NCBI RefSeq assembly: GCF_001941975.2
Contig: NZ_CP146991.1
Span: 736,001-800,000 of the forward strand
DNA length: 64,000 nucleotides
Source of the DNA: Sporomusa sphaeroides DSM 2875
Lineage (GTDB): Bacteria; Bacillota; Negativicutes; Sporomusales; Sporomusaceae
Direction of reading: 5' to 3'
A model generated the notes under the pieces. It searched no databases, was not told the DNA's origin, and worked only from the letters and a program-made list of their open reading frames with translations. Each line of letters begins with the position of its first letter. The first letter of the stretch is position 1. Position numbers and translations under genes: made by a program. Positions 27,958 through 59,927 of the stretch are shown here, one piece after another.

Positions 27958-28021
27958 GTTGTAAAGTATTCAGGGGATGAGCCTGAGCCGGGAAATCTGT
28001 TCCGGCCGGCGTTGTTTCTGA

Positions 28022-28052: not shown

Positions 28053-28075
28053 ATAAAACAGGGGGTTAGGTAATT

Positions 28076-29023: not shown

Positions 29024-29090
29024 AGTTATATCATTTATCTGTGAAAAAAGATGTTTCAGGCGTTTTGGGGCGGGGAGGGAGGATTAAGCT

Positions 29091-29990: not shown

Positions 29991-30927
29991 TTTACGTTCA
30001 CTAATCCAGACTTTGATGTTTGTTTTCTGGACCTATGGCGGCCGGGCCGGAGTAAACCTTGGCTACTCTGTTCCCTGCTTTTCCTGTCCTTATGTTTCTG
30101 GCTGCGCCGGGCATTGTTATCTTATGGCCTTGCAGGGGCAATGGAGCCTGGCGTTTTTATTTTCCGGGCTGCTTTCCTATAAGAGCTTTAAGGTAGTCCT
30201 GTATTTTCTCCTCTTTGTTCTGTTGGCCATCCTGCTGTCAAAACTTTGGTGCGGCTGGGTCTGTCCGTTCGGTACCCTGCAGGACTGGCTGGCCCAACTG
30301 AGAAAAAGGCTGAGAATCCGGGAAACGGAGTTTTCCTGGAAAACCCGGGAGCGTTTGAAGCCGGTTAAATATGTATTGCTGGCCCTGCTGATCACTACAC
30401 CGCTTTTAATTACTTTTGCGGGCTTGCACCGGGATTTTTATCTGCTGTTCTGTCAAATTTGCCCGGCTAAGCCGATTATGCCGCTGTTTGTCGGGGAAAC
30501 CCGCAATCTTGCATTGGATTATACGAACACGATTACGCTGACTTTCTCGGTTTTATCCCTCACTATTGCCGCCGTCACCCTGGTCGGCAGTTTTTTCAAA
30601 GACCGGTTTTTCTGCCTGTTCTGTCCGATGCTTCCTTTGATTCAAATGTCGAAAAAAATCAGCTTTATCCGCTTTGAGAAAAAAGGTCATACCTGCTTAG
30701 GCTGCGGCAACTGCCAAAGAATGTGTCCGGTGGATATCCGGGACGTACATCTGGAAAAGAGGGAAAAAAACGTAATGAGTGAAGACTGTATGCTTTGCCT
30801 GCGCTGCATCGAATCTTGTCCGGAAGATAGTGCGTTAACTGTAAAATTCTTCAATTACAATATATTTTCATCGTCACGCAGGTATGTTGCAAAAAATTAT
30901 CAACAGGGGAAATCTGCAAATGGATAA
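29980..30927 (+). CDS. NapH/NosR-like membrane protein with two [4Fe-4S] ferredoxin motifs
   Basis: This 315-residue polytopic protein has four or five transmembrane helices, the paired C-G-W-V-C-P-F-G and C-x-x-C-P motifs (C-Q-I-C-P, C-L-F-C-P) of the NapH/NosR/CcoG family, and a C-terminal domain with C-L-G-C-G-N-C-Q-R-M-C-P and C-M-L-C-L-R-C-I-E-S-C-P. An extra cysteine cluster near the N-terminus (C-F-S-C-P-Y-V-S-G-C-A-G-H-C) is unusual. Such proteins pass electrons from quinols or membrane carriers to partners. It overlaps the next gene by 8 bases, which suggests it feeds electrons to the 2-HAD-like system. ATG 29980 is chosen because AAGGAG lies upstream. Confidence 0.85.
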   Translation: MVDNLRSLIQTLMFVFWTYGGRAGVNLGYSVPCFSCPYVSGCAGHCYLMALQGQWSLAFLFSGLLSYKSFKVVLYFLLFVLLAILLSKLWCGWVCPFGTLQDWLAQLRKRLRIRETEFSWKTRERLKPVKYVLLALLITTPLLITFAGLHRDFYLLFCQICPAKPIMPLFVGETRNLALDYTNTITLTFSVLSLTIAAVTLVGSFFKDRFFCLFCPMLPLIQMSKKISFIRFEKKGHTCLGCGNCQRMCPVDIRDVHLEKREKNVMSEDCMLCLRCIESCPEDSALTVKFFNYNIFSSSRRYVAKNYQQGKSANG

Positions 30928-32158
30928 CATGGTATCTAAAGAGGAAGAGCGGCGTCTGAGGCAGCGGGCCAAGGCATATGAAAAAACCTGTGAAGAATAC
31001 GATCAGGAAATTGCCGCATTAAAAGCAAGAGCCGACTATGTCGCCGAGTTCGACTATTTCCTGGATTTATTGGCGCGGCCGCTACAGCCTTCCCAGCTCA
31101 GGGAAAAGGTTGGGCGGCCTCTCATTGGTCTGTTTTGTATCCAGGCACCATGGGAGCTGTTCCACGCTTTCGGGGTTCATCCGGTGAAACTGTGCAGCGG
31201 CTCCTATACGGCGCAGCGGCTTGCTGCAGCCTATCTGCCGGTGCTGATGTGCCCCATGCTCAAATCGTATATTGGCAGTACGGACTTTGCCGGTTCAGCG
31301 GCCGGTTATGACGCCACAATTGTCCCGACAACCTGTGACTGGGTTGTGAAAATGCCGGAGATCGCCAAGGAAAAAATCGGGCACCTGCATTATCTGGAGC
31401 TTCCTCATGTCAAGCAGAACGAAAAGGGTCAAAAGCGCTGGCTTGAGGAAATCTATGCCTTAAAACAGTTTTTGGAAGAAAAAACAGGAGCTAAATTAAA
31501 ACGGCAAGACCTCCTGCATTCGATGAATGCTTTTATGAATGTCTGGAAGCTGTTTCAAGAGTTGATTGACCTAAAAAGAAGCAATATTTTTCCCGGAATC
31601 TGGTTTTTCTGTATTGCCAATACGTTTATGCTGGATGACCTGGGACGCTGGGCAAAGCATCTGGCGCTTGCAGTAAAACGGTTCCAGGCGGAAGTACCGC
31701 GGCCGAATCCTTACAGGGTATTTCTCGCCGGCTCCCCGGTGATCTTTCCGAATCTGAAGCTGCTGCAGCTTATTGAGCAGGCAGGGATGACCGTCTGCGC
31801 TGACGACCTCTGTTCTTCCGAGAGAATACTTCCCGGCGCGACGGTATACGACGACCCGTCGGAACACGGCCTGTTAAGAGCGTTGGCCGAAAGGTACCAT
31901 CAGGGCTGTATCTGTCCAACCTTTGCGGATAACGACCGGCGCGTCAATAATATTTTAAAGACAACTGGTGACTGCCAGACAAGAGGGATTGTCTTTCATG
32001 TGTTGAAAGGCTGCCATCCCTATGATATTGAGAGTTTCTCCATCGAAGAAAAAGTGAAGAACAGTGGACGAAAGTTTCTCAAAATTGAAACCGATTATGT
32101 AAAAGAAGACAGCCAGAACATATTGACCCGCTTGGAAGCTTTTAAACAAACTCTATAG
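30920..32158 (+). CDS. 2-hydroxyacyl-CoA dehydratase / double-cubane-cluster-type protein
   Basis: This 412-residue protein belongs to the HgdB/FldBC/BcrBC superfamily. Cysteines occur at 73, 92, 111, 139, 293, 298, 330, 332, 352 and 365, including M-C-P-M-L-K-S-Y, T-T-C-D-W, A-D-D-L-C-S-S and G-C-I-C-P-T-F. Dehydratases and benzoyl-CoA reductases need two different subunits, but only one gene is here, with one activator. That matches the double-cubane-cluster proteins (DCCP), which carry [8Fe-9S] and reduce small molecules such as acetylene. No CoA-transferase or acyl-CoA genes are near. The partner ferredoxin and riboswitch 7 point to a corrinoid- or tetrapyrrole-linked reduction (inference). 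ATG 30920 is preferred over 30884. Confidence 0.82.
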   Translation: MDNMVSKEEERRLRQRAKAYEKTCEEYDQEIAALKARADYVAEFDYFLDLLARPLQPSQLREKVGRPLIGLFCIQAPWELFHAFGVHPVKLCSGSYTAQRLAAAYLPVLMCPMLKSYIGSTDFAGSAAGYDATIVPTTCDWVVKMPEIAKEKIGHLHYLELPHVKQNEKGQKRWLEEIYALKQFLEEKTGAKLKRQDLLHSMNAFMNVWKLFQELIDLKRSNIFPGIWFFCIANTFMLDDLGRWAKHLALAVKRFQAEVPRPNPYRVFLAGSPVIFPNLKLLQLIEQAGMTVCADDLCSSERILPGATVYDDPSEHGLLRALAERYHQGCICPTFADNDRRVNNILKTTGDCQTRGIVFHVLKGCHPYDIESFSIEEKVKNSGRKFLKIETDYVKEDSQNILTRLEAFKQTL

Positions 32159-32173
32159 AAAAAGGTGAGCGCT

Positions 32174-32944
32174 ATGAGTTATAAGATTGGTATTGATCTC
32201 GGCAGCACCGCCATCAAGGCAGTGATCGTCAAAGACACCGAGCTGATCTGGAAAAAAGCGGTGCCGACCGCTCCCGGCCAGGAAGCCTTGGCCCGTAACT
32301 TGCTGGATGAGGGACTGGCGGAGCTTGCCATCAGTAACCAGGACATGGAAGGTATCTCGGTCACCGGTTACGGCAAAAATCTGATTGCCGATGCGCATAC
32401 CGTTATCGATGAGGTTTCTGCCAATGCCTGGGGCGTTTACTTGTTAAGCGGCCGGAAAGCGCGCACAGTCATCAATATCGGCGGTCAGGACATAAAAATT
32501 ATCCGGCTGGCCGAGGATGGCAAATTGAGTGATTTTAAAATGAATGATAAATGTGCGGCCGGGACCGGACGGTTTTTCGAAATGGCCGGGCGTATTCTGG
32601 ACACGTCCATTTATGATTTTGCGGCTTTAGCGGATAAGGCCGATGCTTCCGTCAGCCTCAACAGTACCTGTGCGGTATTTGCGGAAAGTGAGATCGTATC
32701 CCTTATCGCTAAAGGAACAAAGAAGGAAAACATCATCCGCGGGCTGCATGAATCAATAGCCAGACGCATAGCCGGCATGATGGGAAATCAGGACTTTGCC
32801 GATGAACTGTACCTTGACGGCGGATCAGCCAATAATGGCGGGCTGGCGGTAGCAATCGAAGATGAACTTCTCCGGGATGTGTATGTTCTTCCCCATCCTC
32901 AGTTCACGGTCGCCTATGGAGCGGCCTGTTTGCTGCGAAGATAG
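32174..32944 (+). CDS. ATP-dependent reductive activator (HgdC/BadG/DCCP-reductase family, ASKHA fold)
   Basis: This 256-residue protein uses ATP hydrolysis to push an electron at very low potential into its partner. It has the phosphate-binding G-I-D-L-G-S-T-A motif at the N-terminus, the G-G-Q-D motif, both conserved cluster-binding cysteines (D-K-C-A-A-G-T-G and N-S-T-C-A-V-F-A-E-S-E) and a C-terminal adenosine site (L-D-G-G-S-A-N-N). The [4Fe-4S] cluster bridges the homodimer. It begins 15 bases after the 2-HAD-like gene with AAAGGTGAG, and is the last gene of the riboswitch 7 operon. Confidence 0.92.
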   Translation: MSYKIGIDLGSTAIKAVIVKDTELIWKKAVPTAPGQEALARNLLDEGLAELAISNQDMEGISVTGYGKNLIADAHTVIDEVSANAWGVYLLSGRKARTVINIGGQDIKIIRLAEDGKLSDFKMNDKCAAGTGRFFEMAGRILDTSIYDFAALADKADASVSLNSTCAVFAESEIVSLIAKGTKKENIIRGLHESIARRIAGMMGNQDFADELYLDGGSANNGGLAVAIEDELLRDVYVLPHPQFTVAYGAACLLRR

Positions 32945-33041: not shown

Positions 33042-33089
33042 GGAATAAATAAACTAAGTTGTTTCAATAAGAATTGAATATAGCTAAGT

Positions 33090-33290
33090 CAGGTGCCCTG
33101 TAGAGGGCTTAATAGGGAAGTCCGGTGTAATACCGGCGCGGTCCCGCCACTGTAATGGGGAGCAAACCCGAAGATATACCACTGGGACGAGAGTCTTGGG
33201 AAGGTTTGGGAGAGCTATGATCCAGAGCCAGGAGAACTGCCTGTCTGAAGATCGCCGTTTTACCCACGAGTGATGGGGAGGAGATTACAA
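33090..33290 (+). promoter_or_regulatory. Cobalamin riboswitch 8, upstream of BtuFC / CobN-like operon
   Basis: This full aptamer is nearly identical to riboswitch 7 (CAGGTGCCCTGTAGAGGGC, GCCACTGTAATG, GAGCCAGGAGAACTGCC, ACCCACGAGTGATGGGGAGG). The downstream operon runs from 33504 to 42999. Confidence 0.95.
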
Positions 33291-35591: not shown

Positions 35592-38500
35592 ATGCTAACT
35601 ATTTTTACTAATGTGGAAAGACAATGCAAAATGCTGCAGCAGGCCGGAGCGTATCTTGCTGCCAAAACGCTTGGTTTGCCGGAGATCCGGAGTATTTATT
35701 TTGATGATTCTACCGCCTGGTCAAAGCAGGTTAGTGCTCTGCTTAAGGCAAGTGATATTGTTATTTTCCTGTGGCAAGGCCCGGTTTATCCGTGCGAACT
35801 GGCAAATAAGGCATTATCCTTTCTAAAGAATGAGGGTAAAACGGCATATGCCTTTATGTCCACTGCCGATAGTGCGGCAAACACGATCAGCGGCTTTGCT
35901 GACGGGGAAGTACAGCAAATTCGTGACTATATCCTGTGCAGCGGCAGCAGTAACTATCAAAATTTCTTATTGAGGCTGGCAAACAAAACCGGCAGAGGAA
36001 TCTGGGCGTGCCAGCCGCCGCAGGAGCTTGTCTGGCAGGGGATTTATCACCCCGCAGCCCCGGCCGTTTTGCTTGCGACAGACGATTATCTGGCAGCGTT
36101 GTGCCCTCAAAACCGGCCGCTGGTGGGCCTGTTGTTTTCGCGTGAGTCCTGGATATGGCAGGATACGGCTTATATTGACGCCCTTATCAGGGAACTGGAT
36201 GTCCGGGGATTTGGCGCACTGCCCGTATTTGGCCTGTGGGAGGACAACCAGGCGCTCAATGCGGCAGGTATCAGCCAGGCGGTGGAACGGTTTTTTTATC
36301 ATCAGGGGCAAGTTGTTGTTTCCGCTGTAATCAATACTTTTAAAGTAGGGCTCACGCTGAGCCGGCAGAACCGGCCAGGTTTTTTTACCCGTCTGAATGT
36401 ACCTGTTATTCAGGCGTATAATTTGCTGCGTCCCGAGTGCGAGTGGCGGCAAGGGTTTACCGGCATGAATCCGGTTGAGCTTTCGGTTAATGTGGTACAG
36501 CCGGAATTTGACGGGGTGATTCATGGCGGGGTAGTTTCCGGCAAGGAAGCCGACAGCCAGGGGATCAGCCGATATTTGCCGGTGTCGGAGCGGGTTGTGG
36601 CGCTGGCTGATAAGGCTAAAAAGTGGGCCAGTTTGCATTATTCCGGCAATGCAGAGAAAAAAATAGCCATTATTTTCCACAATTATCCACCGACAAATGC
36701 CAGTATCGGCAGTGCGCAGGGACTGGATTCACCGGAAAGTGTGGCTGCTTTGCTGAGAGTAATGGCAGCAAAGGGGTATCATATCGACAGCCTTCCGGCA
36801 AATGGCAGGCAACTGTTAGAGGATTTGCTGACCGGTGTTACTAATGACCGGCGGTTTCTGACCGATGAACAAATCGGGCAGGCGGTTGGCAAAGTCGGTA
36901 AAGGCGACTATAAGATCTGGTTCGACAGTCTGGACCCCAGTGTTAGGGAAGAGTTGACCGCAGAATGGGGGCTGCCGCCGGGGGATGTGTTTTTTGCCAA
37001 TGACAGTCTGATTGTTCCAGGAAGGCTGAACGGTAATATCCTGATTACTCTGCAGCCGCCGCGGGGGTTTGGCGAAGATCCGAATAAAATCATTCATTCA
37101 CCGACCTGTCCGCCGCCGCATCACTATTTGGCTTTTTATGCCTGGATCAGGGAGGTCTGGCAGGCTGATGCCGTTATTCATGTGGGCACACATGGTTCGC
37201 TGGAGTGGCTGCCGGGGAAAAATGCCGGTCTGTCGCACTGCTGCTATCCTGAGCTGGCCTTGCAGGATTTACCGAATATTTATCCTTATTATGTTACTAT
37301 TGTCGGCGAGGGGATTCAGGCCAAACGGCGCGGCGCGGCCTGTCTTATCGGACATCTTTGCCCGCCGATGAGTCATGCCGATACCTATGAAGAACTGGCA
37401 GAATTGGAGGAACTGCTTCAGGAATACGCACATTATAAGGATACACAGCCAGCTAATGCCGCGTTAGTTGGCGAGCAGCTTGCAAGCAAAATAGCCGCAT
37501 TGCATCTTGAGGAAGATTTGCCCAGACAGACCGGGCAGCCGCTGGCTGACTATATTTTGCGTGTGCATGCCTATCTCGAAACTTTAAAGCATATGCAAAT
37601 ACGGACAGGGCTGCATGTTTTAGGCAAAGCGCCGCAGGACGAAGTTTTAACCGAATTCATTCTGGCGCTTACCCGGGTGGATAACGGGGCTGTCCCGTCA
37701 TTGCCGCAGGTGATTGCCAAGGCGGCATACGGCTATGATTATTATCAACTGCTTGAAAAAAGCGGCGAGTTATTGTCTGACGGCAGCCGCAGTTATGCCA
37801 GTGTAATTGATGAAATTTGGGCGACCTGCAAAGCTGCTGTTGTTTGTTTACAGGACAATGGGTTTTCTGAGCAGGGTATTGCAGCCGTTTTCATGCTGCC
37901 GGAGGTGCAAGCACTTGAGCTTGCCGGTACTGTGGTTGAGGAATTGAAGGCTGTTTTAACGTATATCTGTCAGGAACTGTCGGTAAAACTGGCCGCCACG
38001 GTGCACGAGATTACCAATACACTCAGGGCGCTAAACGGAGAATATGTCGAACCCGGACCGGGCGGGGCGCCCAGTAACGGCCGGGCGGATATCCTGCCGA
38101 CAGGGCGAAATTTCTATGGTGTCGATCCCAATAACCTGCCAACTCCCACTGCCTGGCAACTCGGGCAGACTCTGGCCGACCAGGTCATCACCCGCTATAT
38201 AACTGAAGAAGGGGAGTATCCGGAAAGTATTGGCATTGTGTTATGGTCTGATTCCAATATGCGGACAAACGGGCAATGTATTGCCGAGCTGCTCTGCCTC
38301 ATGGGAGTAAGACCTGTCTGGCAAAAGGGCAGCAGACGGGTTATTGGCCTGGAAGTTATTGAGCTTGAGGAACTGAAGCGTCCGCGGATTGATGTTATGG
38401 CCCGAGTAAGCGGATTGTTTCGCGATACCTTATTTAGTGCCATTCAGTTAATGGAACAGGCGACAGCGCTGGTGGCCGGACTGGATGAACCGGAGGATAT

Positions 38501-39314
38501 GAATTTTGTCAAAAAGCATATTATGGCCGACAGTGCAGCCCTTGCCGGTCAGGGCATGGATGAAAAGACAGCCTGGCAACAGGCAAGCTGCCGCATCTTC
38601 GGCTGTCCGCCCGGCGGTTACGGCGCCGGTGTGGCTGCGCTCATAGAGGCTAAGAACTGGAGTAGTATTCATGATATTGCCGATGTTTATGTGCGCTGGG
38701 GGGCACATGCCTATGGCTCCCGGCAGCAGGGCGAGTTTTTGCCCCGGCTGTTCCGGCAGAACCTAGGAAGATTGGCTATCACCATCAAGAATATTGACAA
38801 TCATGAAGTGCACTTGCTTAACTCTGATGATTTCAATGCTTATTGCGGCGGAATGAACGCCGCTGTTCGCAGTATTCGCGGCAAGGCACCGCGGTGCTAT
38901 ATCGGCGACAGTGCTGATCAAAGCCACACCCAGACGAAAAGCCTTGATGAGGAGTTCCGGCGCGTACTGCGTGGGGAATCGCTAAACCCTAAGTTTATCG
39001 AAAGCATGAAAAAGCATGGCTATAAAGGCGCGGCCGACTTAGCGGCACTGGTAGGACATTGCTATGGCTGGGACGCAACCAGTGAGGTGATGCGCGACTG
39101 GATGTACGAAAACCTGGCTGAAAAATTCGCCCTTGACGGCAAGATGCAGGAATGGATGACAGCGGTTAACCCCTGGGCTCTGCAACGAATTGCTGAAAAA
39201 CTGCTGGAGGCGGAACGCCGCGGCATGTGGGAGGCCAAGCCGGAAACCAAAAAAGAACTGGAAAACCTGTATCTTTCCATTGAAGGCGAATTGGAAGACC
39301 GCGCAGATCAATAA
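35592..39314 (+). CDS. CobN/BchH/HmuS family chelatase large subunit
   Basis: This 1240-residue cytoplasmic protein has the family hallmark H-V-G-T-H-G-S-L-E-W-L-P-G-K near residue 530, then D-L-P-N-I-Y-P-Y and G-E-G-I-Q-A-K-R-R. CobN inserts cobalt into hydrogenobyrinate diamide only with its AAA+ partners CobS and CobT; BchH likewise needs BchI and BchD. None of these is in the window. HmuS, a CobN relative, acts without them and removes iron from heme anaerobically. Placement after BtuFC and before a TonB receptor, under riboswitch 8, suggests it acts on an imported tetrapyrrole, possibly as a dechelatase. The start at 35592 follows AAAGGAG. Confidence 0.88.
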   Translation: MLTIFTNVERQCKMLQQAGAYLAAKTLGLPEIRSIYFDDSTAWSKQVSALLKASDIVIFLWQGPVYPCELANKALSFLKNEGKTAYAFMSTADSAANTISGFADGEVQQIRDYILCSGSSNYQNFLLRLANKTGRGIWACQPPQELVWQGIYHPAAPAVLLATDDYLAALCPQNRPLVGLLFSRESWIWQDTAYIDALIRELDVRGFGALPVFGLWEDNQALNAAGISQAVERFFYHQGQVVVSAVINTFKVGLTLSRQNRPGFFTRLNVPVIQAYNLLRPECEWRQGFTGMNPVELSVNVVQPEFDGVIHGGVVSGKEADSQGISRYLPVSERVVALADKAKKWASLHYSGNAEKKIAIIFHNYPPTNASIGSAQGLDSPESVAALLRVMAAKGYHIDSLPANGRQLLEDLLTGVTNDRRFLTDEQIGQAVGKVGKGDYKIWFDSLDPSVREELTAEWGLPPGDVFFANDSLIVPGRLNGNILITLQPPRGFGEDPNKIIHSPTCPPPHHYLAFYAWIREVWQADAVIHVGTHGSLEWLPGKNAGLSHCCYPELALQDLPNIYPYYVTIVGEGIQAKRRGAACLIGHLCPPMSHADTYEELAELEELLQEYAHYKDTQPANAALVGEQLASKIAALHLEEDLPRQTGQPLADYILRVHAYLETLKHMQIRTGLHVLGKAPQDEVLTEFILALTRVDNGAVPSLPQVIAKAAYGYDYYQLLEKSGELLSDGSRSYASVIDEIWATCKAAVVCLQDNGFSEQGIAAVFMLPEVQALELAGTVVEELKAVLTYICQELSVKLAATVHEITNTLRALNGEYVEPGPGGAPSNGRADILPTGRNFYGVDPNNLPTPTAWQLGQTLADQVITRYITEEGEYPESIGIVLWSDSNMRTNGQCIAELLCLMGVRPVWQKGSRRVIGLEVIELEELKRPRIDVMARVSGLFRDTLFSAIQLMEQATALVAGLDEPEDMNFVKKHIMADSAALAGQGMDEKTAWQQASCRIFGCPPGGYGAGVAALIEAKNWSSIHDIADVYVRWGAHAYGSRQQGEFLPRLFRQNLGRLAITIKNIDNHEVHLLNSDDFNAYCGGMNAAVRSIRGKAPRCYIGDSADQSHTQTKSLDEEFRRVLRGESLNPKFIESMKKHGYKGAADLAALVGHCYGWDATSEVMRDWMYENLAEKFALDGKMQEWMTAVNPWALQRIAEKLLEAERRGMWEAKPETKKELENLYLSIEGELEDRADQ

Positions 39315-43119: not shown

Positions 43120-43148
43120 TTGACAAAACCTGCCAGGCAATATACTAT
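43120..43148 (+). promoter_or_regulatory. Promoter of riboswitch 9
   Basis: TTGACA (43120-43125) and TACTAT (43143-43148) are 17 bases apart. The aptamer starts about 45 bases after the -10. Confidence 0.55.
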
Positions 43149-43198: not shown

Positions 43199-43395
43199 CA
43201 GGTGCCCGCAAGGGCTTAATAGGGAAGACCGGTGTAATGCCGGCGCGGTCCCGCCACTGTAATGGGGAGTGAACCCAAGGTATGCCACTGGGACGAAGGT
43301 CTCGGGAAGGTTTGGGCAAGCTATGAGCCAGAGCCAGGAGAACTGCCTGTCTAAAGATCGCCGTTTTACCCACGAGTGATGGGGAGGAGATTACA
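43199..43395 (+). promoter_or_regulatory. Cobalamin riboswitch 9, upstream of nitrogenase-like operon
   Basis: The aptamer is complete (CCAGGTGCCC, AATAGGGAAGACCGG, GGTCCCGCCACTGTAATG, TATGCCACTGGGACGAAGG, GAGCCAGGAGAACTGCC, ACCCACGAGTGATGGGGAGG). The next gene encodes a NifH-like protein. Confidence 0.95.
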
Positions 43396-43453
43396 GTTGC
43401 ACTAGCTTATTTGGAATGTATTCCAAGTGAGTTGTGTTGCCTTGCTGAATTTG

Positions 43454-43533
43454 CTCCTGGTCATAGACCAGGAGTTTTTATTTGGATTTATGCTGTAGAA
43501 TTCTCCCGGCTGCCATGGCGACCGGGAGTTTCT
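43454..43533 (+). terminator. Tandem intrinsic terminators after riboswitch 9
   Basis: CTCCTGGT/ACCAGGAG with TTTTTA (43454-43479) is followed by CTCCCGG/CCGGGAG with TTTCTT (43503-43533). Confidence 0.83.
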
Positions 43534-43571
43534 TATTTAGTTGCCATTTCTTCTAACTCCTTCATGCTTTT

Positions 43572-43601
43572 GCGGGTCTATTATGACCCGCGCTTTTTTT
43601 T
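43572..43601 (+). terminator. Third terminator, GCGGGTC family copy 3
   Basis: GCGGGTC-TATTAT-GACCCGC followed by GCTTTTTTTT. As with riboswitch 7, it gives three stop signals between aptamer and first gene. Confidence 0.8.
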
Positions 43602-43602
43602 C

Positions 43603-43655
43603 CTAACAGAAAGTATATAACTTTTTTAAAAGCAGGATAAAGGCAACAGCGGCTT
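43603..43655 (+). repeat. Dispersed 50-base element, copy 1
   Basis: CTAACA, an AT-rich stretch, AGGATAAAGG, AAC and GGCTTC recur in the same order and spacing at 61131-61182 before the anti-sigma gene. The similarity is about 70 percent by eye. Its nature is unknown; it could be a shared promoter-proximal element. Confidence 0.4.
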
Positions 43656-43727
43656 CCGCGCCGCCAAAAGCTTGGTGTAAACCGTGTTTTCTTTATGAAT
43701 TGATAAAACAAGGAGCGGATAAGGCAT

Positions 43728-44543
43728 ATGCAAAAAAAGATTGCCTTTTACGGCAAGGGCGGCATCGGCAAGTCGACGACAGCCGCCAATGTATCGGCCG
43801 CACTGGCGGAAATGGGACACAGAGTTTGCCAAATTGGCTGTGATCCCAAAAATGATTCCACCCGCCTTTTATTAGGGAAGGTTTGTTCACAGACGGTATT
43901 GGATATGGTTAAGCAATATGGGGAGGAAGTCAGGACCGAGGACTTGGTACATAGCGGCTTTGGCGGCGTACAGTGTATCGAGGCCGGAGGGCCCGAGCCA
44001 GGAGTAGGCTGCGCCGGACGCGGCATAATTGTGGCATTGGAAAAGCTAAAAGCCTTGCAGGCTTTGCCCGAAGATGCCATTATTCTGTACGATGTACTGG
44101 GAGATGTGGTGTGCGGCGGCTTTGCCGTACCCATACGGGAAGGCTATGCCAGCGATATTTACATTGTATCTTCCGGTGAACTCATGTCACTCTATGCGGC
44201 CAATAATATTGCCAAAGGGGTGGCCCGCTATGCTGCCCGGGGGGCGGTGCGGCTTGGCGGCATTATCGGCAATAGCCGCGGCATTGCTAATGAGCAGGCA
44301 TTGCTTGAGGAATTTGCCAAACGGCTGCATACTTCTTTAGTTGCCTATATTCCCAGGGATCGTACCGTTAATAAAGCGGAAATTCATCGTAAAACAGTCA
44401 TCGAATTTGCGGCAGACTCGCCACAGGCGGCGATTTACCGTCAGTTAGCCGGTTTTATTTGTGAGAATACGGCGCTGAGTGTGCCGACCCCCATGTCCTT
44501 TGCAGAATTAGAGGAGCTGGTGCTTGACTATGGTGATGAATAA
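43728..44543 (+). CDS. NifH/BchL/CfbC-like ATPase iron protein
   Basis: This 271-residue protein is a nitrogenase-type iron protein that hydrolyses ATP to deliver electrons to a NifDK-like partner. It has the P-loop G-K-G-G-I-G-K-S-T (9-17), C-D-P-K-N-D-S-T, the switch I-adjacent cluster cysteine G-C-A-G-R-G (Cys95) and the second cluster cysteine D-V-V-C-G-G-F-A-V-P (Cys129). These hold a [4Fe-4S] cluster between two subunits. It is slightly shorter than NifH. The start at 43728 follows AAGGAG. No nifB, nifE/N or nifV genes are near, so it is not a dinitrogen-fixing set. It overlaps the NifD-like gene by 20 bases. Confidence 0.93.
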   Translation: MQKKIAFYGKGGIGKSTTAANVSAALAEMGHRVCQIGCDPKNDSTRLLLGKVCSQTVLDMVKQYGEEVRTEDLVHSGFGGVQCIEAGGPEPGVGCAGRGIIVALEKLKALQALPEDAIILYDVLGDVVCGGFAVPIREGYASDIYIVSSGELMSLYAANNIAKGVARYAARGAVRLGGIIGNSRGIANEQALLEEFAKRLHTSLVAYIPRDRTVNKAEIHRKTVIEFAADSPQAAIYRQLAGFICENTALSVPTPMSFAELEELVLDYGDE

Positions 44544-45831
44544 ACGGGCGAAAACAGCCCGCAAACGGGGTTACAGCTGTGCGATGCCGGGCGTGTGGCG
44601 CGCCGTTTCCCACAATGAAGGCGCGCTTGTTATTTACCATAGTCCCAAAGCCTGCGGGCATATCGGCCGGGAAATGGATTTGGGAATGCATTTCCGTTCA
44701 CTGGCAAAGCGGCAATTTATGCCGGAGCAGTACTCGGCACCACTGATCATCAGCGGGCTGACGGAAGAGCATTCGATTTTCGGTGGGGCCGGCTTACTCA
44801 GGGAATGTATTGAATATGCAGCCGAAAGGTACAAGCCGGCCTATATTTTGATTGCCAATTCCTGTGTGGCCGGCGTAATTGGTGATGATACGGCTGCGGT
44901 GGCAGGCGAGGCAGAGGCGGCTCTGGGCATACCGGTGATGTCTGTTCCCTGTTATGGTTACCTGGACGGCGACTATTATGCCGGGTTTTATCATGCCGGA
45001 AAAACACTGGCAGAGCGCTTTATGATTGCCCAGCCAAAGGTGGTTAATACGGTAACTCTCTTGGGTGACCGCGGCGGCCCCAATGGCATGGATGTGCAGG
45101 AAATTAAACGTTTGCTGGGCTATTTTAGCCTAAAAGTGTATTGTCATTTTCCGGCATATGCTTCGCTGGAGGATATAAGACGGGTGCCGTTTACCGCACT
45201 GACAGTACCGCTTAGCGGAACAAGACAGTCCAATCCCTGGATGTGCAAGCTGGGGCAGGAACTGGAGGAGATGCTGGGAGTGCCTGCTTTTGACGGGGAT
45301 TATCCGGCAGGCTGGCAGGCGACGGTTTTATGGCTGACGAACTTAGGCCGGTTTCTCAACCGGCAGCAGCAGGCTGAAGCTGCCATTAAGCAGGAGGCGG
45401 AGCGGTTAAACCGGCATATCGCTGAGTATAGCAGCCAGTTGCAGGATAAGCGGATTGTATTGTATCTCGGACGGCCGCTGCTGTATTTTGATCCGGCCTG
45501 GGTACTGGAGTTATTTTCTTTGTATAAGCTGAATTTGGCAGGCATTGTGGTGCTGGATGATGTGTTGAGCAAGGACCAGCAGCTTGATTTATATCAGGAA
45601 CTGAAGCAGCAAACCGGCATACCCTGTTTTTCTCAGGCAGAGGGAAAAGGCATAGTTGAAACAGCAGATATTGTTGTGACCACGCATGAGTTGACTGTAG
45701 CAGCCAGGAAAAAGCAGCTCTTTCTGCCCTTGCTGCCGCTGGCCGGGGTAGGGGGCGTTACTGCCCTGATGACTAAGCTGGTGCGCCTGGCGCAGCGTCA
45801 TGACCGACGGGGAGGAATTATGTATGTGTAA
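44524..45831 (+). CDS. NifD/BchN-like nitrogenase-superfamily subunit
   Basis: This 435-residue protein has the three cluster cysteines of the D-type subunit in the usual context: Y-S-C-A-M-P (Cys19), P-K-A-C-G-H (Cys44) and N-S-C-V-A-G-V-I-G-D-D (Cys114). Beyond these it is too divergent for me to place in a known clade (BchN, CfbD, MarD, or NifD). TTG 44524 is favoured by GAGGAG seven bases upstream; ATGs at 44530 and 44536 are alternatives. It overlaps both neighbours, indicating tight translational coupling. The active-site cofactor or substrate is unknown. Cobalamin riboswitch control points to corrinoid or related tetrapyrrole chemistry. Confidence 0.85.
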   Translation: MTMVMNKRAKTARKRGYSCAMPGVWRAVSHNEGALVIYHSPKACGHIGREMDLGMHFRSLAKRQFMPEQYSAPLIISGLTEEHSIFGGAGLLRECIEYAAERYKPAYILIANSCVAGVIGDDTAAVAGEAEAALGIPVMSVPCYGYLDGDYYAGFYHAGKTLAERFMIAQPKVVNTVTLLGDRGGPNGMDVQEIKRLLGYFSLKVYCHFPAYASLEDIRRVPFTALTVPLSGTRQSNPWMCKLGQELEEMLGVPAFDGDYPAGWQATVLWLTNLGRFLNRQQQAEAAIKQEAERLNRHIAEYSSQLQDKRIVLYLGRPLLYFDPAWVLELFSLYKLNLAGIVVLDDVLSKDQQLDLYQELKQQTGIPCFSQAEGKGIVETADIVVTTHELTVAARKKQLFLPLLPLAGVGGVTALMTKLVRLAQRHDRRGGIMYV

Positions 45832-47119
45832 TAGTCAGTGGTCAGATGCGCGGACTTTGGTGGAAGCCTGCGCGCTCACCGGCGTAGCCGCTTTCTTTGC
45901 CGGTATTCCTGATGCTGTATTGGTGGCCAATGGCCCCATGTGGTGTTATTTTTATGCGCTGCGCTATCTGGAAAGGCAGTGTCCGGCGGTCAGTTCACAA
46001 TTTTACTGCACCCAGGCTGATAATCATGCGGTTGTCTATGGTACTGAGGAATGTTTGCTGGAAACCTTGGCTATCATTCGCCAGCAGGCCCGGCCGTCGG
46101 TTGTATTGATAGAAAATAGCTGCTCTGTCAGCTTGATTGGCGATGATATCGCGGGCATTGCCAGACAGGCGGATTTATCTTGCCCGGTGGTCTGTGTGGA
46201 CAGCGGCGGACTGGCCGGCGGCTTTGCCGCAGGCTACCGCGCTGCTGCGGGAGCGTATCTGGAGCAGCTGCCGCTAAGCCGTCCGGGGGCGATACGGCCC
46301 GGTACTGTCAATCTGCTGGGCTGCACGGTTGGCTACTACAATGCCGATAATGATGTTCAGGAATTGAAACGTATGCTTAAACTGGCAGGCTATGAAGTGC
46401 TGGCTTGTCCGGGAGCAGGCAGCAGCACCCAGGTTATAAGCGGCATGACCGGCGCGTCGCTCAACATTGTTGTCCATGAGGAATTGGGTCTTGACCTGGC
46501 CAAACAGCTTAATGAGCAGTATGGTATGCCTTATGTATCTTTGCCGCCGCCTTATGGTTTGCAGGGGTCGCTGGCCTGGCTGCAAAGCTTGCGGCACTAT
46601 GCGACAGGCGGTGCCGGTGATTTGCGCAAGGTTTGGCAGGAAATCAGCGGCCTGGAGCGGAAAATTCAGGCAAGTACTCTGGAAATGCAGCGGGTCTGGG
46701 GCGATATGTGGTTTGAAAAAACGCTCCTTGCCGCACCGGGTTCTGCGGCTGTAGCCATGGCCGAGGCTGTCCGTACCGAGTGGCTGGATACAGGCCGGCT
46801 GACTGTCATGGCCTATGGTCAAATTCCGGCTTATACTGTGCCGGATTGCATTGATACCCTTATAGAGGCCGGCGGCGACAGTCAGGTCACGGAGCAGCTG
46901 CTGGCAGAGCTGGAGGGTGGATTATTGCTGGCCGGCAGCAATGAAAAGGCCATATTGCAGCAAAAGCTGGTGCCTAATGTGGTTTGCCAGAATATTGCGC
47001 TGCCGGTATATGATGAAGTCATTTTAAGCGACCGGCCATTTATGGGGTTGCAGGGAGCCTGCTATATGCTGGAACGGCTTTGGAATCAGTATATTACTTT
47101 TTGTCAACGGCGTAAGTAA
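45824..47119 (+). CDS. NifK/BchB-like nitrogenase-superfamily subunit
   Basis: This 431-residue protein has the K-type cysteine pattern: V-E-A-C-A-L-T-G (Cys16), P-M-W-C-Y-F (Cys41) and N-S-C-S-V-S-L-I-G-D-D (Cys100), matching NifK cysteines 70, 95 and 153 in context. With three more in the D-like subunit this allows a six-cysteine cluster, as in the nitrogenase P-cluster. Protochlorophyllide reductase (BchNB) instead uses three cysteines and an aspartate. ATG 45824 follows GGGGAGGAA; ATG 45800 would add eight residues. No FeMo-cofactor assembly genes are seen, so substrate may bind directly, as in tetrapyrrole reductases. Confidence 0.83.
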   Translation: MCNSQWSDARTLVEACALTGVAAFFAGIPDAVLVANGPMWCYFYALRYLERQCPAVSSQFYCTQADNHAVVYGTEECLLETLAIIRQQARPSVVLIENSCSVSLIGDDIAGIARQADLSCPVVCVDSGGLAGGFAAGYRAAAGAYLEQLPLSRPGAIRPGTVNLLGCTVGYYNADNDVQELKRMLKLAGYEVLACPGAGSSTQVISGMTGASLNIVVHEELGLDLAKQLNEQYGMPYVSLPPPYGLQGSLAWLQSLRHYATGGAGDLRKVWQEISGLERKIQASTLEMQRVWGDMWFEKTLLAAPGSAAVAMAEAVRTEWLDTGRLTVMAYGQIPAYTVPDCIDTLIEAGGDSQVTEQLLAELEGGLLLAGSNEKAILQQKLVPNVVCQNIALPVYDEVILSDRPFMGLQGACYMLERLWNQYITFCQRRK

Positions 47120-47148
47120 AAATAAACTGTACAAGGAGGGGAAAAAAT

Positions 47149-47346
47149 ATGTTACAATATATTCCTGAAAATTGGCCGTATGATCATGCACATCCCTCTG
47201 AGCAGGAGGATAGGGCAGTCGAGGATAAAGCAGTTCTTTATTTTGTTGTTTTCAAGCAACCGGATGCGGCAAGATACGCAAGCGGGTGTTTTAAAGCCAG
47301 GCAGATGATTGATTTTTGGCAACGGAGAATGAATGTTTATGCATAG
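47149..47346 (+). CDS. Small protein of unknown function in nitrogenase-like operon
   Basis: This 65-residue protein lacks a signal or membrane segment. It has a strong AAGGAGGGG ribosome site and lies between the NifK-like and CobO genes, so it is likely translated. Features are Y-I-P-E-N-W-P-Y-D-H-A-H-P near the start, a central A-V-L-Y-F-V-V-F strand and a C-terminal S-G-C-F-K-A-R-Q-M-I-D-F-W helix with one cysteine. I do not recognise a family. It could be a small accessory subunit of the reductase. Confidence 0.65.
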   Translation: MLQYIPENWPYDHAHPSEQEDRAVEDKAVLYFVVFKQPDAARYASGCFKARQMIDFWQRRMNVYA

Positions 47347-47365
47347 AAAAAGGAGTATTGTCAGT

Positions 47366-47899
47366 ATGGCAGACACTAAAGGCTTAGTTATTGTAAATAC
47401 CGGAAACGGCAAAGGAAAAACAACAGCGGCTTTGGGGCTGGGTATGCGGGCCTGGGGCCAGGGGCTCCGGGTGCTCGTATTACAATTTATTAAAGGCAAT
47501 TGGACCTATGGCGAATTGCAGGCTGCCGAACGAATGGGCGCGGATTTTGTTATCCGCCAAATGGGTGAAGGATTTGTAAGAAATAGTGCCGATGATGAAA
47601 GAGCCGATCATATGCAGGCATCCAAAGAAGCCCTGGAGGATGCCAGACAGGAAATCATGTCCGGAGCGTGGGGGATGATTATCCTGGATGAGATTAACTA
47701 CGCTCTTGGCTATGGGCTGCTTCCGGTGGATGAAGTACTGGAATTGATAGCTGCAAAGCCGGATTATCTGCACCTGGTGCTTACCGGCCGCAGCGCGTGT
47801 AAGGAAATCATTGATAAAGCCGATTTGGTAACCGAAATGGGAGAAATTAAGCACCCATATAAACAGGGAATCAGGGCGCAAAAGGGTATTGAATTTTAA
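47366..47899 (+). CDS. cobO: Cob(I)alamin adenosyltransferase, CobA/CobO/BtuR type
   Basis: This 177-residue enzyme transfers the adenosyl group of ATP to cob(I)alamin or cobinamide to make the coenzyme form. It has the P-loop G-N-G-K-G-K-T-T, the W-G-Q-G-L-R segment, F-I-K-G-N-W, the Walker-B-like I-I-L-D-E-I-N-Y and the conserved L-V-L-T-G-R. ATG 47366 follows AAAAAGGAG and gives the same length as the paralogue at 59394, so the upstream ATG at 47333 is rejected. The two copies are about 80 percent identical by eye. Placement with a nitrogenase-like reductase suggests the reductase product, or its corrinoid substrate, is adenosylated. Confidence 0.95.
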   Translation: MADTKGLVIVNTGNGKGKTTAALGLGMRAWGQGLRVLVLQFIKGNWTYGELQAAERMGADFVIRQMGEGFVRNSADDERADHMQASKEALEDARQEIMSGAWGMIILDEINYALGYGLLPVDEVLELIAAKPDYLHLVLTGRSACKEIIDKADLVTEMGEIKHPYKQGIRAQKGIEF

Positions 47900-47922: not shown

Positions 47923-49614
47923 CTACTGCTGCGGTTGTTCAGAATAGCTCCAGCCGCCGGTGCCGTTTAATTTTAATATCTTGCGGTGGTATGACGTTAG
48001 CGTATCCCGGTGGCCAATACTGATTACTGCGGCATCAGGTAGCTTCTCTTTAAGTATCTGGTATATTTCTGCTTCCATGGCAGCGTCAATACAAGCGGTT
48101 GTCTCATCGAGGAAGATCCACTTTGGCCGGTGCAAGATGGCCCGGGCCAGGGAAAGTCGTTGGAGTTCACCCGGTGAAAGGTTTTTTGACCAGTCTGTTT
48201 CGATATCCAGGCGTGGGAGCAGCGCGGCTAATTTGCATATATGCAGTGCCTCTTCCACCTTATTGTCCGTTACGCTGACGTGTTTGTACGGGTATAGTAC
48301 CGCCGCGCGCAGTGAGCCAATCGGGATATAAGGTTTTTGCGGCAGAAACAGGACACTGCTATCCGGCGGGCAGGACATTTGCCCGGAGAAATAGGGCCAG
48401 ACTCCGGCTAATGTTTGTAATAATGTGGTTTTGCCACAGCCCGAAGGACCGGTAATCAGCAGGCTTTCACCGCTAGGGAGCGCTAAGGTAAGCTTGTTCA
48501 CCAGGATATGGCCGGCAGGAGAAAATACGGAAAGTTCTTTGGTTATGAGTGTATCCGGATTGTAAAAGAAAGTGTTTGATGCCAGGTGCTGTGACTGGAT
48601 AAGCCGGAGCTGGGTGCAAAACTCCCGCAGACGGTTAGTTACAGCCTGCCATTGAGCGATTTTCCCAAAGCTTTCAATAATATAGGCGAGCGCGGAATGA
48701 ACATACCAATAAGCCCCCGATATTTCGAATAATTGTCCAAGCTGCAGCTCGTCATTGAAATATTTGGGAGACGCGATCAAAAAGGCAAATACGGTAGACA
48801 ACTGTGTATAGGCTGAGGATATCCAGGTAATGTCCCTGGTGGTTTTAATTATTGCAAGCTGGGTAATTACAATATTTGAAAACCATTTTAATAAGTTGTG
48901 CTTTTCCCAGGTATCTCCTTTGCATAATACAACACCTTCGGCATATTCCTTCAGCCTGATTAAGCTGTAGCGGAAGTTGGCTTCATTGCTTTGCTGAAGG
49001 TTATTTTGCAGCATAAGAGGACGCCCTATCTTTATGGTTACCCAGGTGCCGAAAGCGGAATACAGGAGGGCGGACCAGACCAGGTAGCCGGGAATTATAA
49101 CTTCGGTTGTCAATAAGGAGACCCGGATTTCCCCTGATAACCGCCAAAGGACAACTGAAAATACGATAAGCGTTATCAAATGACGCAGCAGCCCCACGGC
49201 CAAGTCCAGTGAATGGGTAACAAACAGCTGAATGTCCTCGCCGATACGCTGGTCCGGATTATCGATAGCCTTGACAAGAAATTTCATATGAAAATAGTTC
49301 TGTTTGTGCAGCCACAGTGTGATATATTTATTCGTTAACCACTGGCGCCACCGCAGCTGCAGCAGCATTTTGACATGTGTCTGCCAGCCTGAGGCTGCGA
49401 CGAGAATGGAACAAATCAGAGCAAATTGAACTAAGGAATGATAAAAACCGGCGAGGTTATGCTGCTGCAGGTGATTGTAGAAGCCTACCTGCCAATTATT
49501 AAGCTGCATATGGAGCAGTACCAGCAAACCGGTGCAAAGGATGAGAAGCAGGGTTAATATCCAGGCTTTGGGAGCAGCTTTCGACAACCAATAGGACAGT
49601 GCCATTCTTACCAA
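47923..49614 (-). CDS. SbmA/BacA/Rv1819c-like ABC transporter (fused permease-ATPase)
   Basis: This protein of about 563 residues has an N-terminal membrane domain (about 1-330) with the N-P-D-Q-R-I-G-E-D motif of the SbmA/peroxisomal-ABC type and a C-terminal ATPase: Walker A G-P-S-G-C-G-K-T-T, signature L-S-P-G-E-L-Q-R, Walker B W-I-F-L-D-E-T-T. Relatives such as Rv1819c import vitamin B12 and hydrophilic peptides. TTG 49614 (ATG 49605 nine bases on) follows GAGGAG on the minus strand. Longer translations run antisense through riboswitch 10 and are rejected. It is the only minus-strand gene in the cobalamin region besides merR, and has no riboswitch of its own. Confidence 0.85.
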   Translation of the reverse strand: MVRMALSYWLSKAAPKAWILTLLLILCTGLLVLLHMQLNNWQVGFYNHLQQHNLAGFYHSLVQFALICSILVAASGWQTHVKMLLQLRWRQWLTNKYITLWLHKQNYFHMKFLVKAIDNPDQRIGEDIQLFVTHSLDLAVGLLRHLITLIVFSVVLWRLSGEIRVSLLTTEVIIPGYLVWSALLYSAFGTWVTIKIGRPLMLQNNLQQSNEANFRYSLIRLKEYAEGVVLCKGDTWEKHNLLKWFSNIVITQLAIIKTTRDITWISSAYTQLSTVFAFLIASPKYFNDELQLGQLFEISGAYWYVHSALAYIIESFGKIAQWQAVTNRLREFCTQLRLIQSQHLASNTFFYNPDTLITKELSVFSPAGHILVNKLTLALPSGESLLITGPSGCGKTTLLQTLAGVWPYFSGQMSCPPDSSVLFLPQKPYIPIGSLRAAVLYPYKHVSVTDNKVEEALHICKLAALLPRLDIETDWSKNLSPGELQRLSLARAILHRPKWIFLDETTACIDAAMEAEIYQILKEKLPDAAVISIGHRDTLTSYHRKILKLNGTGGWSYSEQPQQ

Positions 49615-49700
49615 GTGACCTGCTCCTCTCGCGTGAAGATGGAAGTCAGATATGGCATGTATATGCCATCTTGAGCAGAGATATACAAAATAAGAACAAC

Positions 49701-49729
49701 TTGACACTATTTGGACTGAAGTATATACT
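49701..49729 (+). promoter_or_regulatory. Promoter of riboswitch 10
   Basis: TTGACA (49701-49706), 17 bases, TATACT (49724-49729), a near-consensus sigma-A promoter in the divergent region with the SbmA-like gene. The aptamer starts 27 bases after the -10. Confidence 0.75.
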
Positions 49730-49755
49730 GGAAACAATAAACAGAATATTTGAGG

Positions 49756-49952
49756 TAGGTGCCCAACTGGGCTTAATAGGGAAGACCGGTGAAAAGCCGG
49801 CGCGGTCCCGCCACTGTAACGGGGAGTAAGCTTAAGATATGCCACTGGGATGAGTTTCTGGGAAGGTTTAAGCGAGCTATGATCCGGAGTCAGGAGAACT
49901 GCCTGTCTGACAATCACCGTTTGTTACCCACGAGGGTTTGGGGAGGGGATTA
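49756..49952 (+). promoter_or_regulatory. Cobalamin riboswitch 10, upstream of BtuF-ExbBD-CbiZ-BtuCD operon
   Basis: The aptamer is complete (TAGGTGCCC, AATAGGGAAGACCGG, GGTCCCGCCACTGTAACG, GATATGCCACTGGGATGAG, GTCAGGAGAACTGCC, TTACCCACGAGG...GGGGAGGGG). It controls the longest conventional corrinoid-uptake operon in the window, running to 60933. Confidence 0.95.
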
Positions 49953-55808: not shown

Positions 55809-57002
55809 TTGTATTGGCAGGCGAAATCTGAAACCATGAAAAAACTGTCTTTGCGCCTAGTGTTGCTACTGTCTGTTATTTTCTACTACAGTACAGCTCA
55901 GTGTATGGCGAATGAGCGGAGCGATTTGTACATACTATCTACCGGTGATACTGTTTACCGGCAGGATACCAGTGTGATAGTTGCCTTTAACAGCCCTAAG
56001 GCGGTGCTAAGTACATCCAAGTTCAATGGCGGCTACCAGGATAATCTCTCTGCAGTATTTAACCATGATATGAAACAGGCTGTTGGCGTAACGGCTGATA
56101 ATTACCTGGATTATTTGAAGCATGTGGCGAAAAACTTGCAGCTTAATCCCAAACGGGTAACCGGTATGGGAACAGCGGCATCCATGGAAAATACCGCCAT
56201 AAATTCGGCAAGCTACCAGACGCTTACGGTGACTGCTATTGCCACCGGCGGTGTGGAGGGAAATGGCGGACGGGCCGGTGATCAGGCAGATTATTTTCTG
56301 ACTGGGAAAAAGAGAGCTTTGTATAAGCCGGGGACCATTAACATTATACTGGTGATTGATGCCGATATTCCGCCGGCGATAATGGCCAGGGCATTGGTGA
56401 CCTGCACCGAAGCCAAAACTGCTGCTTTGCAGGAGCTGATGGCCGGCAGCAAGTTTTCCAGCGGGCTGGCAACCGGTTCAGGGACAGATCAGACGATGAT
56501 CATTGCCAATCCAAGTTCTTCACTCTATCTGGAAGATGCGGGCAAGCATTCCAAACTAGGCGAATTGATCGGCCGTACCGTCAAACAAACGGTCAAGGAA
56601 GCGCTGCTAAAGCAGACAGGTTTATCGCCGCAAAAACAGCACAGTGTGCTGCGGCGCATGAATCGCTACGGTGTTATCGAGGAAACATTGTATCAACAAT
56701 ATGTACAGGATATTGGCTTGATTGACAAAGAGCGGTTTTTAACGTCACTGCGGCAACTGGACAAAGAATCGCCTCTGGTAACCGGTGCGTCATTGTATAT
56801 CCACTTGCTGGATCAATTTCAGTGGGAACTAGTAAGCGGTGATGAACTAATCCAGGCAGGAAATGAACTCCTGGCATTGACGGCAGGCAAATATCATGTT
56901 TCGCCGCCGGTCATGCATTCAGCCGAAGTGACACCTGCTATTTATGCATGGTCTTCTCTGGTAGTGAAGATTTTAGCTGACAGGCTGCAGGTGGAATCTT
57001 AA
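55809..57002 (+). CDS. cbiZ: Exported CbiZ-type adenosylcobinamide amidohydrolase with C-terminal extension
   Basis: CbiZ cleaves the nucleotide-loop linker of cobinamide so that cobyric acid can be rebuilt with a preferred lower ligand. The family motifs are clear: V-L-S-T-S-K-F-N-G-G-Y, G-G-V-E-G-N-G-G-R-A-G-D, P-G-T-I-N-I-I-L, T-E-A-K-T-A-A-L-Q-E-L, A-T-G-S-G-T-D and A-G-K-H-S-K-L-G-E-L-I-G (to about residue 260). Two features are unusual: an N-terminal signal peptide (hydrophobic about 14-31, cleavage near C-M-A-N) and about 135 extra C-terminal residues of unknown, mostly helical nature. TTG 55809 follows AGGAGAGGTGG; ATG 55836 is possible. An exported CbiZ would act before inner-membrane transport. 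Confidence 0.88.
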   Translation: MYWQAKSETMKKLSLRLVLLLSVIFYYSTAQCMANERSDLYILSTGDTVYRQDTSVIVAFNSPKAVLSTSKFNGGYQDNLSAVFNHDMKQAVGVTADNYLDYLKHVAKNLQLNPKRVTGMGTAASMENTAINSASYQTLTVTAIATGGVEGNGGRAGDQADYFLTGKKRALYKPGTINIILVIDADIPPAIMARALVTCTEAKTAALQELMAGSKFSSGLATGSGTDQTMIIANPSSSLYLEDAGKHSKLGELIGRTVKQTVKEALLKQTGLSPQKQHSVLRRMNRYGVIEETLYQQYVQDIGLIDKERFLTSLRQLDKESPLVTGASLYIHLLDQFQWELVSGDELIQAGNELLALTAGKYHVSPPVMHSAEVTPAIYAWSSLVVKILADRLQVES

Positions 57003-59393: not shown

Positions 59394-59927
59394 TTGGCAG
59401 AATCCCAAGGATTAATTATTGTGAATACCGGAAATGGCAAAGGCAAAACAACGGCAGCCCTGGGGCTGGGCATGCGGGCCTGGGGACAGGGTCTGCGGGT
59501 GCTTGTGCTGCAATTCATCAAAGGGAATTGGAAGTATGGCGAATTAACAGCTGCTGAAAGAATGGGGGCAGATTTTGTTATCCGCCAGTTGGGCGAGGGC
59601 TTTGTGGGAAATAGCAGTGGCGATGAAAAGGAGGACCATAAGAAAGCGGCCCAAGCGGCATTGGAAGATGCCAGACAGGAAATCATGTCAGGAAAGTGGG
59701 ACATGATTATTCTGGATGAAATTAATTATGCCATCGGCTATGGGCTGATTTCGGCAGACGAAGTGCTGGATGTATTAGCAAAAAAAACGGGCTCTTTACA
59801 CCTTGTCCTTACCGGACGTGGTGCCCGGCAGGAAATTATTGATAAAGCTGATTTAGTAACAGAAATGAGAGAAATTAAACACCCCCTTAAACAGGGAATA
59901 AAAGCGCAAAAGGGTATTGAATTTTGA
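59394..59927 (+). CDS. cobO: Cob(I)alamin adenosyltransferase, CobA/CobO/BtuR type (second copy)
   Basis: This 177-residue enzyme is colinear with and about 80 percent identical (by eye) to the copy at 47366, with the same P-loop, W-G-Q-G-L-R and I-I-L-D-E-I-N-Y motifs. Differences cluster in residues 70-90 and 130-145. The start is TTG 59394 after AGGAGAGAGGAG. It follows BtuD by 21 bases, so newly imported corrinoid is adenosylated at once. Its 3' end runs to 59927, 28 bases before the next start. Confidence 0.95.
   Translation: MAESQGLIIVNTGNGKGKTTAALGLGMRAWGQGLRVLVLQFIKGNWKYGELTAAERMGADFVIRQLGEGFVGNSSGDEKEDHKKAAQAALEDARQEIMSGKWDMIILDEINYAIGYGLISADEVLDVLAKKTGSLHLVLTGRGARQEIIDKADLVTEMREIKHPLKQGIKAQKGIEF

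Follow-up and report, generated by a model that had tools for sequence, protein, structure and literature searches.

The stretch of DNA analysed here, a 64,000 nucleotide (nt) window of the Sporomusa sphaeroides DSM 2875 genome (contig NZ_CP146991.1, positions 736,001–800,000), contains an operon in which a cobalamin riboswitch precedes genes for a NifH-like ATPase (H) and for NifD- and NifK-like subunits (D and K; together HDK). Judged by their sequences, D and K appear to represent a new clade of nitrogenase relatives with a new predicted class of substrate. It is considered an even bet that this clade acts on corrinoids, with a P-cluster, no metal cofactor and ATP driving electrons into B12-type macrocycles, and that it is part of a wider pairing of nitrogenase-like sets with TonB/BtuFCD-type metallophore importers, of which the genome holds three cases. 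More specifically, HDK may be an ATP-driven, low-potential reductase of salvaged corrinoid, acting most likely at cobalt so that CobO can adenosylate it; this favoured reading is given a probability of about 0.35.

Gene set, cluster ligands and phylogeny

The gene order in the original prediction, which placed HDK behind the ninth riboswitch of the window (RF00174, 43183–43364) and before a 65-residue protein and CobO, was recovered on the + strand. The H gene (43728–44543) matches PF00142 (E 2.7e-107, 358.7 bits), and the P-loop, Cys95 and Cys129 ascribed to it can be read directly in the sequence; its scores lie under the NCBIfam cut-offs for both NifH (381.6 of 394.35 bits) and CfbC (369.4 of 402 bits). 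D (44530–45831) and K (45800–47119) match PF00148 at E 3.1e-53 and 1.2e-50 (181.5 and 173.0 bits, curated cut-off 28.6). The open reading frame (ORF) of D is open from 44524, with the start at 44530 suggested by relatives. Next come the 65-residue ORF (47149–47346) and a CobO/CobA-type ATP:corrinoid adenosyltransferase gene (47333–47899; PF02572, E 5.4e-66; TIGR00708, over cut-off). The gene pairs H/D, D/K and 65-residue ORF/CobO overlap. Pfam and NCBIfam scans gave no family for the 65-residue ORF. Its sole match among the 46 related loci described below is a weak relative in Sporomusa acidovorans (locus L045, 14990–15148; 33 % over 57 amino acids, E 1e-4), which likewise sits directly 5′ of CobO (match from 15171). 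A second CobO-type adenosyltransferase gene is present at 59394–59927 of the window, thus the CobO beside HDK is not the sole copy.

Three cluster cysteines had been reported in each of D and K, in a pattern resembling a P-cluster and not the cluster of BchNB. Alignment of 17 representatives (the window copy plus 16 loci) to the genome's own NifD and NifK bears this out: the P-cluster cysteines of D (C17, C42 and C112 from the start at 44530; C19, C44 and C114 from 44524) and of K (C24, C49 and C108) are kept in 17/17 representatives. In a larger D alignment of 29 rows C44 and C114 are invariant and C19 is nearly so, one sequence (P0079) beginning after it, and all three cysteines are invariant among 30 rows of K. 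A fourth cysteine of D (position 95 from 44524) occurs in every one of the 29 rows, and 15 of the 17 rows aligned with NifD have it. Equivalents of the iron–molybdenum (FeMo)-cofactor ligands Cys275 and His442 were found in 0/17 D sequences for both residues, with the alignment gappy around the histidine. MarD has a cysteine at the NifD cofactor-ligand column, whereas D of the riboswitch operon does not. D and K presumably form a complex, and would carry a P-cluster-type centre.

In the tree, D and K each form one clade with 100/100 support. These clades are separate from NifDKEN, MarDK, one partial BchB row and four other pairs from the genome, including its Mar-like pairs, which puts them outside the characterised groups that were tested; CfbD, BchN and BchYZ were not part of the tree, and the placement of BchB and of the genome's two importer-linked pairs, all on long branches, is unsure. 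Family scores are likewise low. The best BchN/BchB equivalog score is that of K, 79.9 of 490.35 bits (TIGR01278), the CfbD scores are 31.5 (D) and 28.8 (K) of 268.4 bits, and both subunits lie far under all Nif cut-offs of NCBIfam. Membership of the MarHDK group is ruled out by the separate clade together with the missing MarD cofactor-site cysteine, although D has MarD as its best Protein Data Bank (PDB) sequence match. Single-chain structure models have predicted local distance difference test (pLDDT) values of 84.8 for D and 89.2 for K, and the modelled K appears nearest to BchB, tied with MarK.

Predicted riboswitch control and recurrent corrinoid genes

The aptamer upstream of H is one of 10 cobalamin riboswitches in the window and 31 in the genome. 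It scores 113.3 bits against RF00174 (gathering score 31.5) and 190.3 bits against a custom model, R1, that includes the aptamer's own copy. A sigma-70-like promoter, TTGACA-17-TACTAT (43120–43148, + strand, 10/12 positions), is a consensus match only, as 7 such sites occur in the region against 4.8 expected from shuffles. Two terminator-like hairpins follow the aptamer, at 43453–43483 and 43571–43600 (+ strand). Fold energy and complementarity mark the first as a possible anti-terminator switch: its 5′ arm, CTCCTGG, is complementary to CCAGGAG at 43334 on the 3′ side of the aptamer, and the hairpin stem is predicted at −16.5 kcal/mol against −17.9 kcal/mol for a duplex of the hairpin and aptamer regions. 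Pairing of these two motifs is a plausible anti-terminator. When the same pairing was tried on ten leaders, L045 matched the window in its complementarity, which was shorter in L046 and L049; any pairing in the remaining six made no comparable use of the CTCCTGG/CCAGGAG motif. A terminator-like hairpin between the riboswitch and the operon (or CbiK) is present in 13/14 leaders, compared with 1.35 expected from 60 base shuffles per leader; it is lacking in L048 and weak in L089. The part of a reporter study available to us (PMC9600662) describes Negativicutes riboswitches as mostly promiscuous toward corrinoids. Given these corrinoid-responsive riboswitches and the hairpins and complementarity of the leader, the operon is likely to be switched by corrinoid.

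Elsewhere in the window, two tandem cobalamin riboswitches (11466–11649 and 11837–12015, 187 bases apart) precede a TonB-plug protein. The minus-strand gene at 47923–49917 encodes an SbmA/BacA-type ATP-binding cassette (ABC) transporter; its true start is probably further in, because the called start overlaps a + strand riboswitch at 49740–49920.

A public-genome scan for relatives yielded 46 loci. To judge by record titles they belong almost entirely to Negativicutes, but Pelotomaculum and one metagenome-assembled genome labelled Acholeplasmataceae are also included; a plasmid search returned distant relatives only. Nineteen of the genome's riboswitches were used to build a covariance model, which placed a + strand riboswitch no more than 3 kb 5′ of D in 13/46 loci; upstream sequence of 1 kb or more was present in 41 of the 46. 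When positions were shifted circularly at random inside each locus, the mean count was 5.3, and 13 was reached in 1/5000. In L071, L072 and L049 a gene of the CbiK family separates the riboswitch from the operon, and in L045 and L063 the gap is longer and contains another ORF. No upstream riboswitch was found by the custom model, within 3 kb, in 33/46 loci. Sixteen of these were rescanned with Rfam and 0/16 had one upstream, three of them (L055, L061 and L062) having less than 0.8 kb before D; L053 has one 3′ of K. Present in 13 loci and not found in 33, the link to a riboswitch is frequent among Sporomusaceae and occurs in some other families too, but is not universal. A survey of cobO linkage had been proposed as well; CobO is near HDK in 5/46 loci.

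Gene order within the set is well conserved. K is directly 3′ of D in 46/46 loci and H directly 5′ of D in 42/46; the loci without an adjacent H are L049, L061, L077 and L088, the DNA 5′ of D being short in L061 and L088. Neighbouring genes were counted by in-house clustering of the fetched DNA, with labels taken from one or a few members and several loci ending at contig edges. BtuF-like binding proteins are found in 33/46 loci, FecCD permeases and CobN in 30 each, CbiZ and TonB-receptor family proteins in 25 each, ChlI/ChlD-type AAA proteins in 24, a SPASM radical-SAM protein and a TIM-barrel protein in 19 each, and CbiK in 9. The radical-SAM gene is directly 3′ of CobN in 13 loci. The predicted link to cobalamin genes in relatives is borne out in that at least one of CobN, CbiZ, CbiK and CobO is present in 40/46 loci; the others are L047, L051, L061, L065, L084 and L085, and for three of these six the contig is shorter than 6.3 kb. 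The original interpretation is partly supported: of the two outcomes named at the outset as counting against it, a place inside a characterised clade (among those tested) and the lack of a conserved tie to cobalamin genes, neither was observed.

Co-occurrence was assessed in 380 genomes of Negativicutes. D is present in 76 at E ≤ 1e-60, genomes being counted by D alone, and three of these (G073, G377 and G082) have a weak or incomplete best match. CobN occurs in 71/76 D genomes and in 112/380 genomes overall, the SPASM radical-SAM protein in 57/76 and 68/380, and CobN in 66 of the 68 radical-SAM genomes. By genus (102 genera), D is found with CobN in 27/29, D with radical-SAM in 24/29 and radical-SAM with CobN in 27/28. 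Fisher tests were made by genome and by genus, with kinship deeper than genus uncorrected. CbiD, counted by eye, is present in 332/380 genomes and in 73/76 D genomes; A role for HDK specific to organisms that cannot make B12 is therefore unsupported.

Candidate reactions

Among the targets originally proposed, a lower-ligand precursor found no support in these analyses. In the aerobic B12 pathway CobN inserts Co(II), CobR, a reductase, takes the cobalt to Co(I), and adenosylation by CobO follows. By analogy, HDK would take CobR's middle step in an anaerobe, beside CobN–ChlI–ChlD and CobO, making Co(I) between insertion by CobN and adenosylation by CobO. Corrinoid scarcity would cause the riboswitch to let transcription pass the terminators, and H would reduce the D/K pair at the cost of ATP. 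Electrons would then move via the P-cluster-like centre into an empty cofactor cavity, where corrinoid from the TonB/BtuFCD-type importers may bind much as protochlorophyllide does in BchNB. In this scheme we infer the substrate, cobalt as the electron acceptor and the regulation by corrinoid. Several observations weigh against such a reductase: CobO is near HDK in so few loci, the early-insertion pathway, with CbiD, is present in most HDK genomes, an upstream riboswitch was not found in the majority of loci, and the SPASM radical-SAM protein has no explained job.

Almost as likely as a corrinoid-salvage reductase is an enzyme that reduces a tetrapyrrole, imported or remodelled, at its ring. 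By analogy with dark-operative protochlorophyllide oxidoreductase (DPOR) and CfbCD, HDK would act together with CobN–ChlI–ChlD and the SPASM radical-SAM protein to make or unmake a new metallo-tetrapyrrole. The likeness of the K model to BchB, tied as it is with MarK, the absence of a cofactor ligand in D/K and the recurrence of CobN with the radical-SAM protein, both across genomes and side by side in loci, are consistent with this. There is also precedent, in the available part of PMC11423573, for pairing of nitrogenase-like enzymes with radical-SAM partners in Isr, Mar and Nfa. However, no ring product is known, and the labelled recurrent neighbour families, not all of which were scanned, include no further ring-modifying enzyme. 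The riboswitch and CbiZ also indicate corrinoid supply over a new pigment.

Metal removal is less likely. Here reduction of a metal macrocycle by HDK, be it a corrinoid or another, would allow the CobN-type chelatase to extract the metal, a reductive demetallation serving cobalt recycling. Co-occurrence of CobN with D fits this, and a CobN relative, HmuS, strips iron from heme in gut anaerobes according to the accessible portion of PMC12583661; yet the same portion describes de-chelation by HmuS as needing no ATP. Metal insertion has its ATP partners in proteins of the ChlI/ChlD type, which recur in 24/46 loci, and destruction of corrinoid just when the riboswitch reports little of it would be odd. 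A heme reading of CobN after the manner of HmuS is weakened by the recurrence of ChlI/ChlD-type proteins and by a riboswitch that is for cobalamin.

It is improbable that HDK acts on a non-tetrapyrrole substrate, for instance a C–S bond, with B12 regulation incidental (as for a B12-independent route). The match of D to MarD would agree with such a substrate, but the D/K clade stands apart from MarDK with full support, D lacks the cofactor-site cysteine common to MarD and NifD, and corrinoid genes recur while no labelled recurrent neighbour family is a sulfur gene, although no search was aimed at sulfur genes. A nitrogenase or a NifEN-like assembly scaffold is ruled out for practical purposes by the absent cofactor ligands and low Nif scores, and the genome carries a full, separate NifDKEN-type set at 4.466–4.472 Mb; the original statement that FeMo-cofactor assembly genes are lacking thus holds for the Pfam-scanned proteins of the window and not for the genome.

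Known nitrogenase relatives deal with N2, chlorophyll rings, F430 and C–S bonds; a corrinoid-tied clade would add a class of substrate. If correct, the favoured reading would provide a cofactor-free P-cluster enzyme for comparison with nitrogenase and could explain why B12-making anaerobes hold CobN-type chelatases. Relatives that are host-associated would bear on B12 exchange in microbial communities. Operon carriers include Sporomusa, Selenomonas, Veillonella and Phascolarctobacterium faecium, and because the operon is present in named cultured organisms it is directly testable.

Related gene sets and known systems

Other corrinoid genes share the window. A cobalamin riboswitch at 33074–33258 (+ strand, RF00174) precedes a run of BtuF-like, FecCD, CobN and TonB-receptor genes, in which the CobN-type chelatase subunit is encoded at 35592–39314 (+ strand; PF02514, and TIGR02257 over cut-off). 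Additional CobN and radical-SAM genes at 707–711 kb and ChlI/ChlD genes at 725–728 kb of the genome belong to the same riboswitch-rich region as HDK. A CbiZ-type adenosylcobinamide amidohydrolase (55809–57002, + strand, PF01955) has a signal-peptide-like N terminus. By eye, such N termini are also seen in S. acidovorans, S. ovata and L063, unlike most others listed, and they suggest that these CbiZ-type proteins may remove the lower loop outside the cytoplasm.

A single + strand run at 25446–32944 comprises a riboswitch, a TonB receptor, two unassigned genes, a Fer4_5 protein, a double-cubane-like reductase and an activator ATPase. Its last four genes, from a 299-residue gene to the activator, occupy 29091–32944. 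The reductase scores 240.2 bits against NF040772, under the cut-off of 350, and matches PDB 6eno, a double-cubane protein, at E 1e-40; the activator is over the cut-off of TIGR00241. In S. ovata the four-gene run lies directly 3′ of K, the activator there matching in two reading frames, and it was found at none of the other loci among the 46. This placement suggests that strongly reducing, ATP-driven chemistry may be part of the B12 riboswitch regulon.

Three other nitrogenase-like sets were noted on the same contig as HDK. In the first (L124, 802–10427 of 4174001–4190000), a TonB siderophore-type receptor, a binding protein, two FecCD permeases, an ATPase and NifH/D/K-like genes form one run; D keeps three cluster cysteines and K none. 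Six relatives (L142–L147) all have D, K, the binding protein and both FecCD permeases, with the receptor in 5/6 and H, by a simple ORF call, in 4/6. From its gene content, this is a predicted nitrogenase-like set paired with a metallophore importer. The second (L123, 3991–12102 of 2976001–2992000) combines H/D/K-like genes with those of a BtuFCD-like importer; both a cobalamin riboswitch on the minus strand and a 366-residue gene of no assigned family precede them. Here D has three cluster cysteines and K one. In the third (L125, within 1092001–1108000), a gene of the URO-D family comes after a Mar-like D/K pair whose K scores 299.9 bits against MarK, an arrangement that resembles the mlp clusters in the available part of PMC10418091.

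Among known systems, MarHDK (Group IV) differs from the operon in its clade and in the NifD-aligned cofactor cysteine of MarD, and the labelled neighbours of the operon are corrinoid genes, not sulfur genes. The cluster of DPOR (BchNB) is a 3-Cys-1-Asp [4Fe-4S] cluster; compared with BchLNB/ChlLNB, the operon D/K has six cysteines, three in each subunit, and scores far under the NCBIfam cut-offs. Chelatase genes are found near CfbCD in F430 synthesis, and the operon is similar in this respect and in how close H scores to CfbC; CfbD, however, is a single subunit, not a D/K pair. IsrBHDK is also a nitrogenase-like set with a radical-SAM partner, but in the available part of PMC11423573 IsrD keeps one of three cysteines, as opposed to three in the operon D, and the gene context is different. 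Dos Santos et al. (2012), in the part of PMC3464626 available, note nitrogenase-like genes adjoining ABC transporters, cite a proposed F430 role for methanogen NflD and suggest cobalamin reduction for a single-subunit NflD beside cobyrinic acid diamide synthase; that part mentions no riboswitch, CobN or D/K pair. The claim that a corrinoid-linked member would be new must be narrowed by this suggestion. It appears to hold for the clade itself: no description of this D/K clade or its riboswitch link was found in a literature search, in which subscription journals were poorly covered. Late cobalt insertion by CobNST–CobR–CobO is alike in that CobN and CobO types are present with HDK; it belongs to the aerobic pathway, whereas HDK genomes carry CbiD of the anaerobic route.

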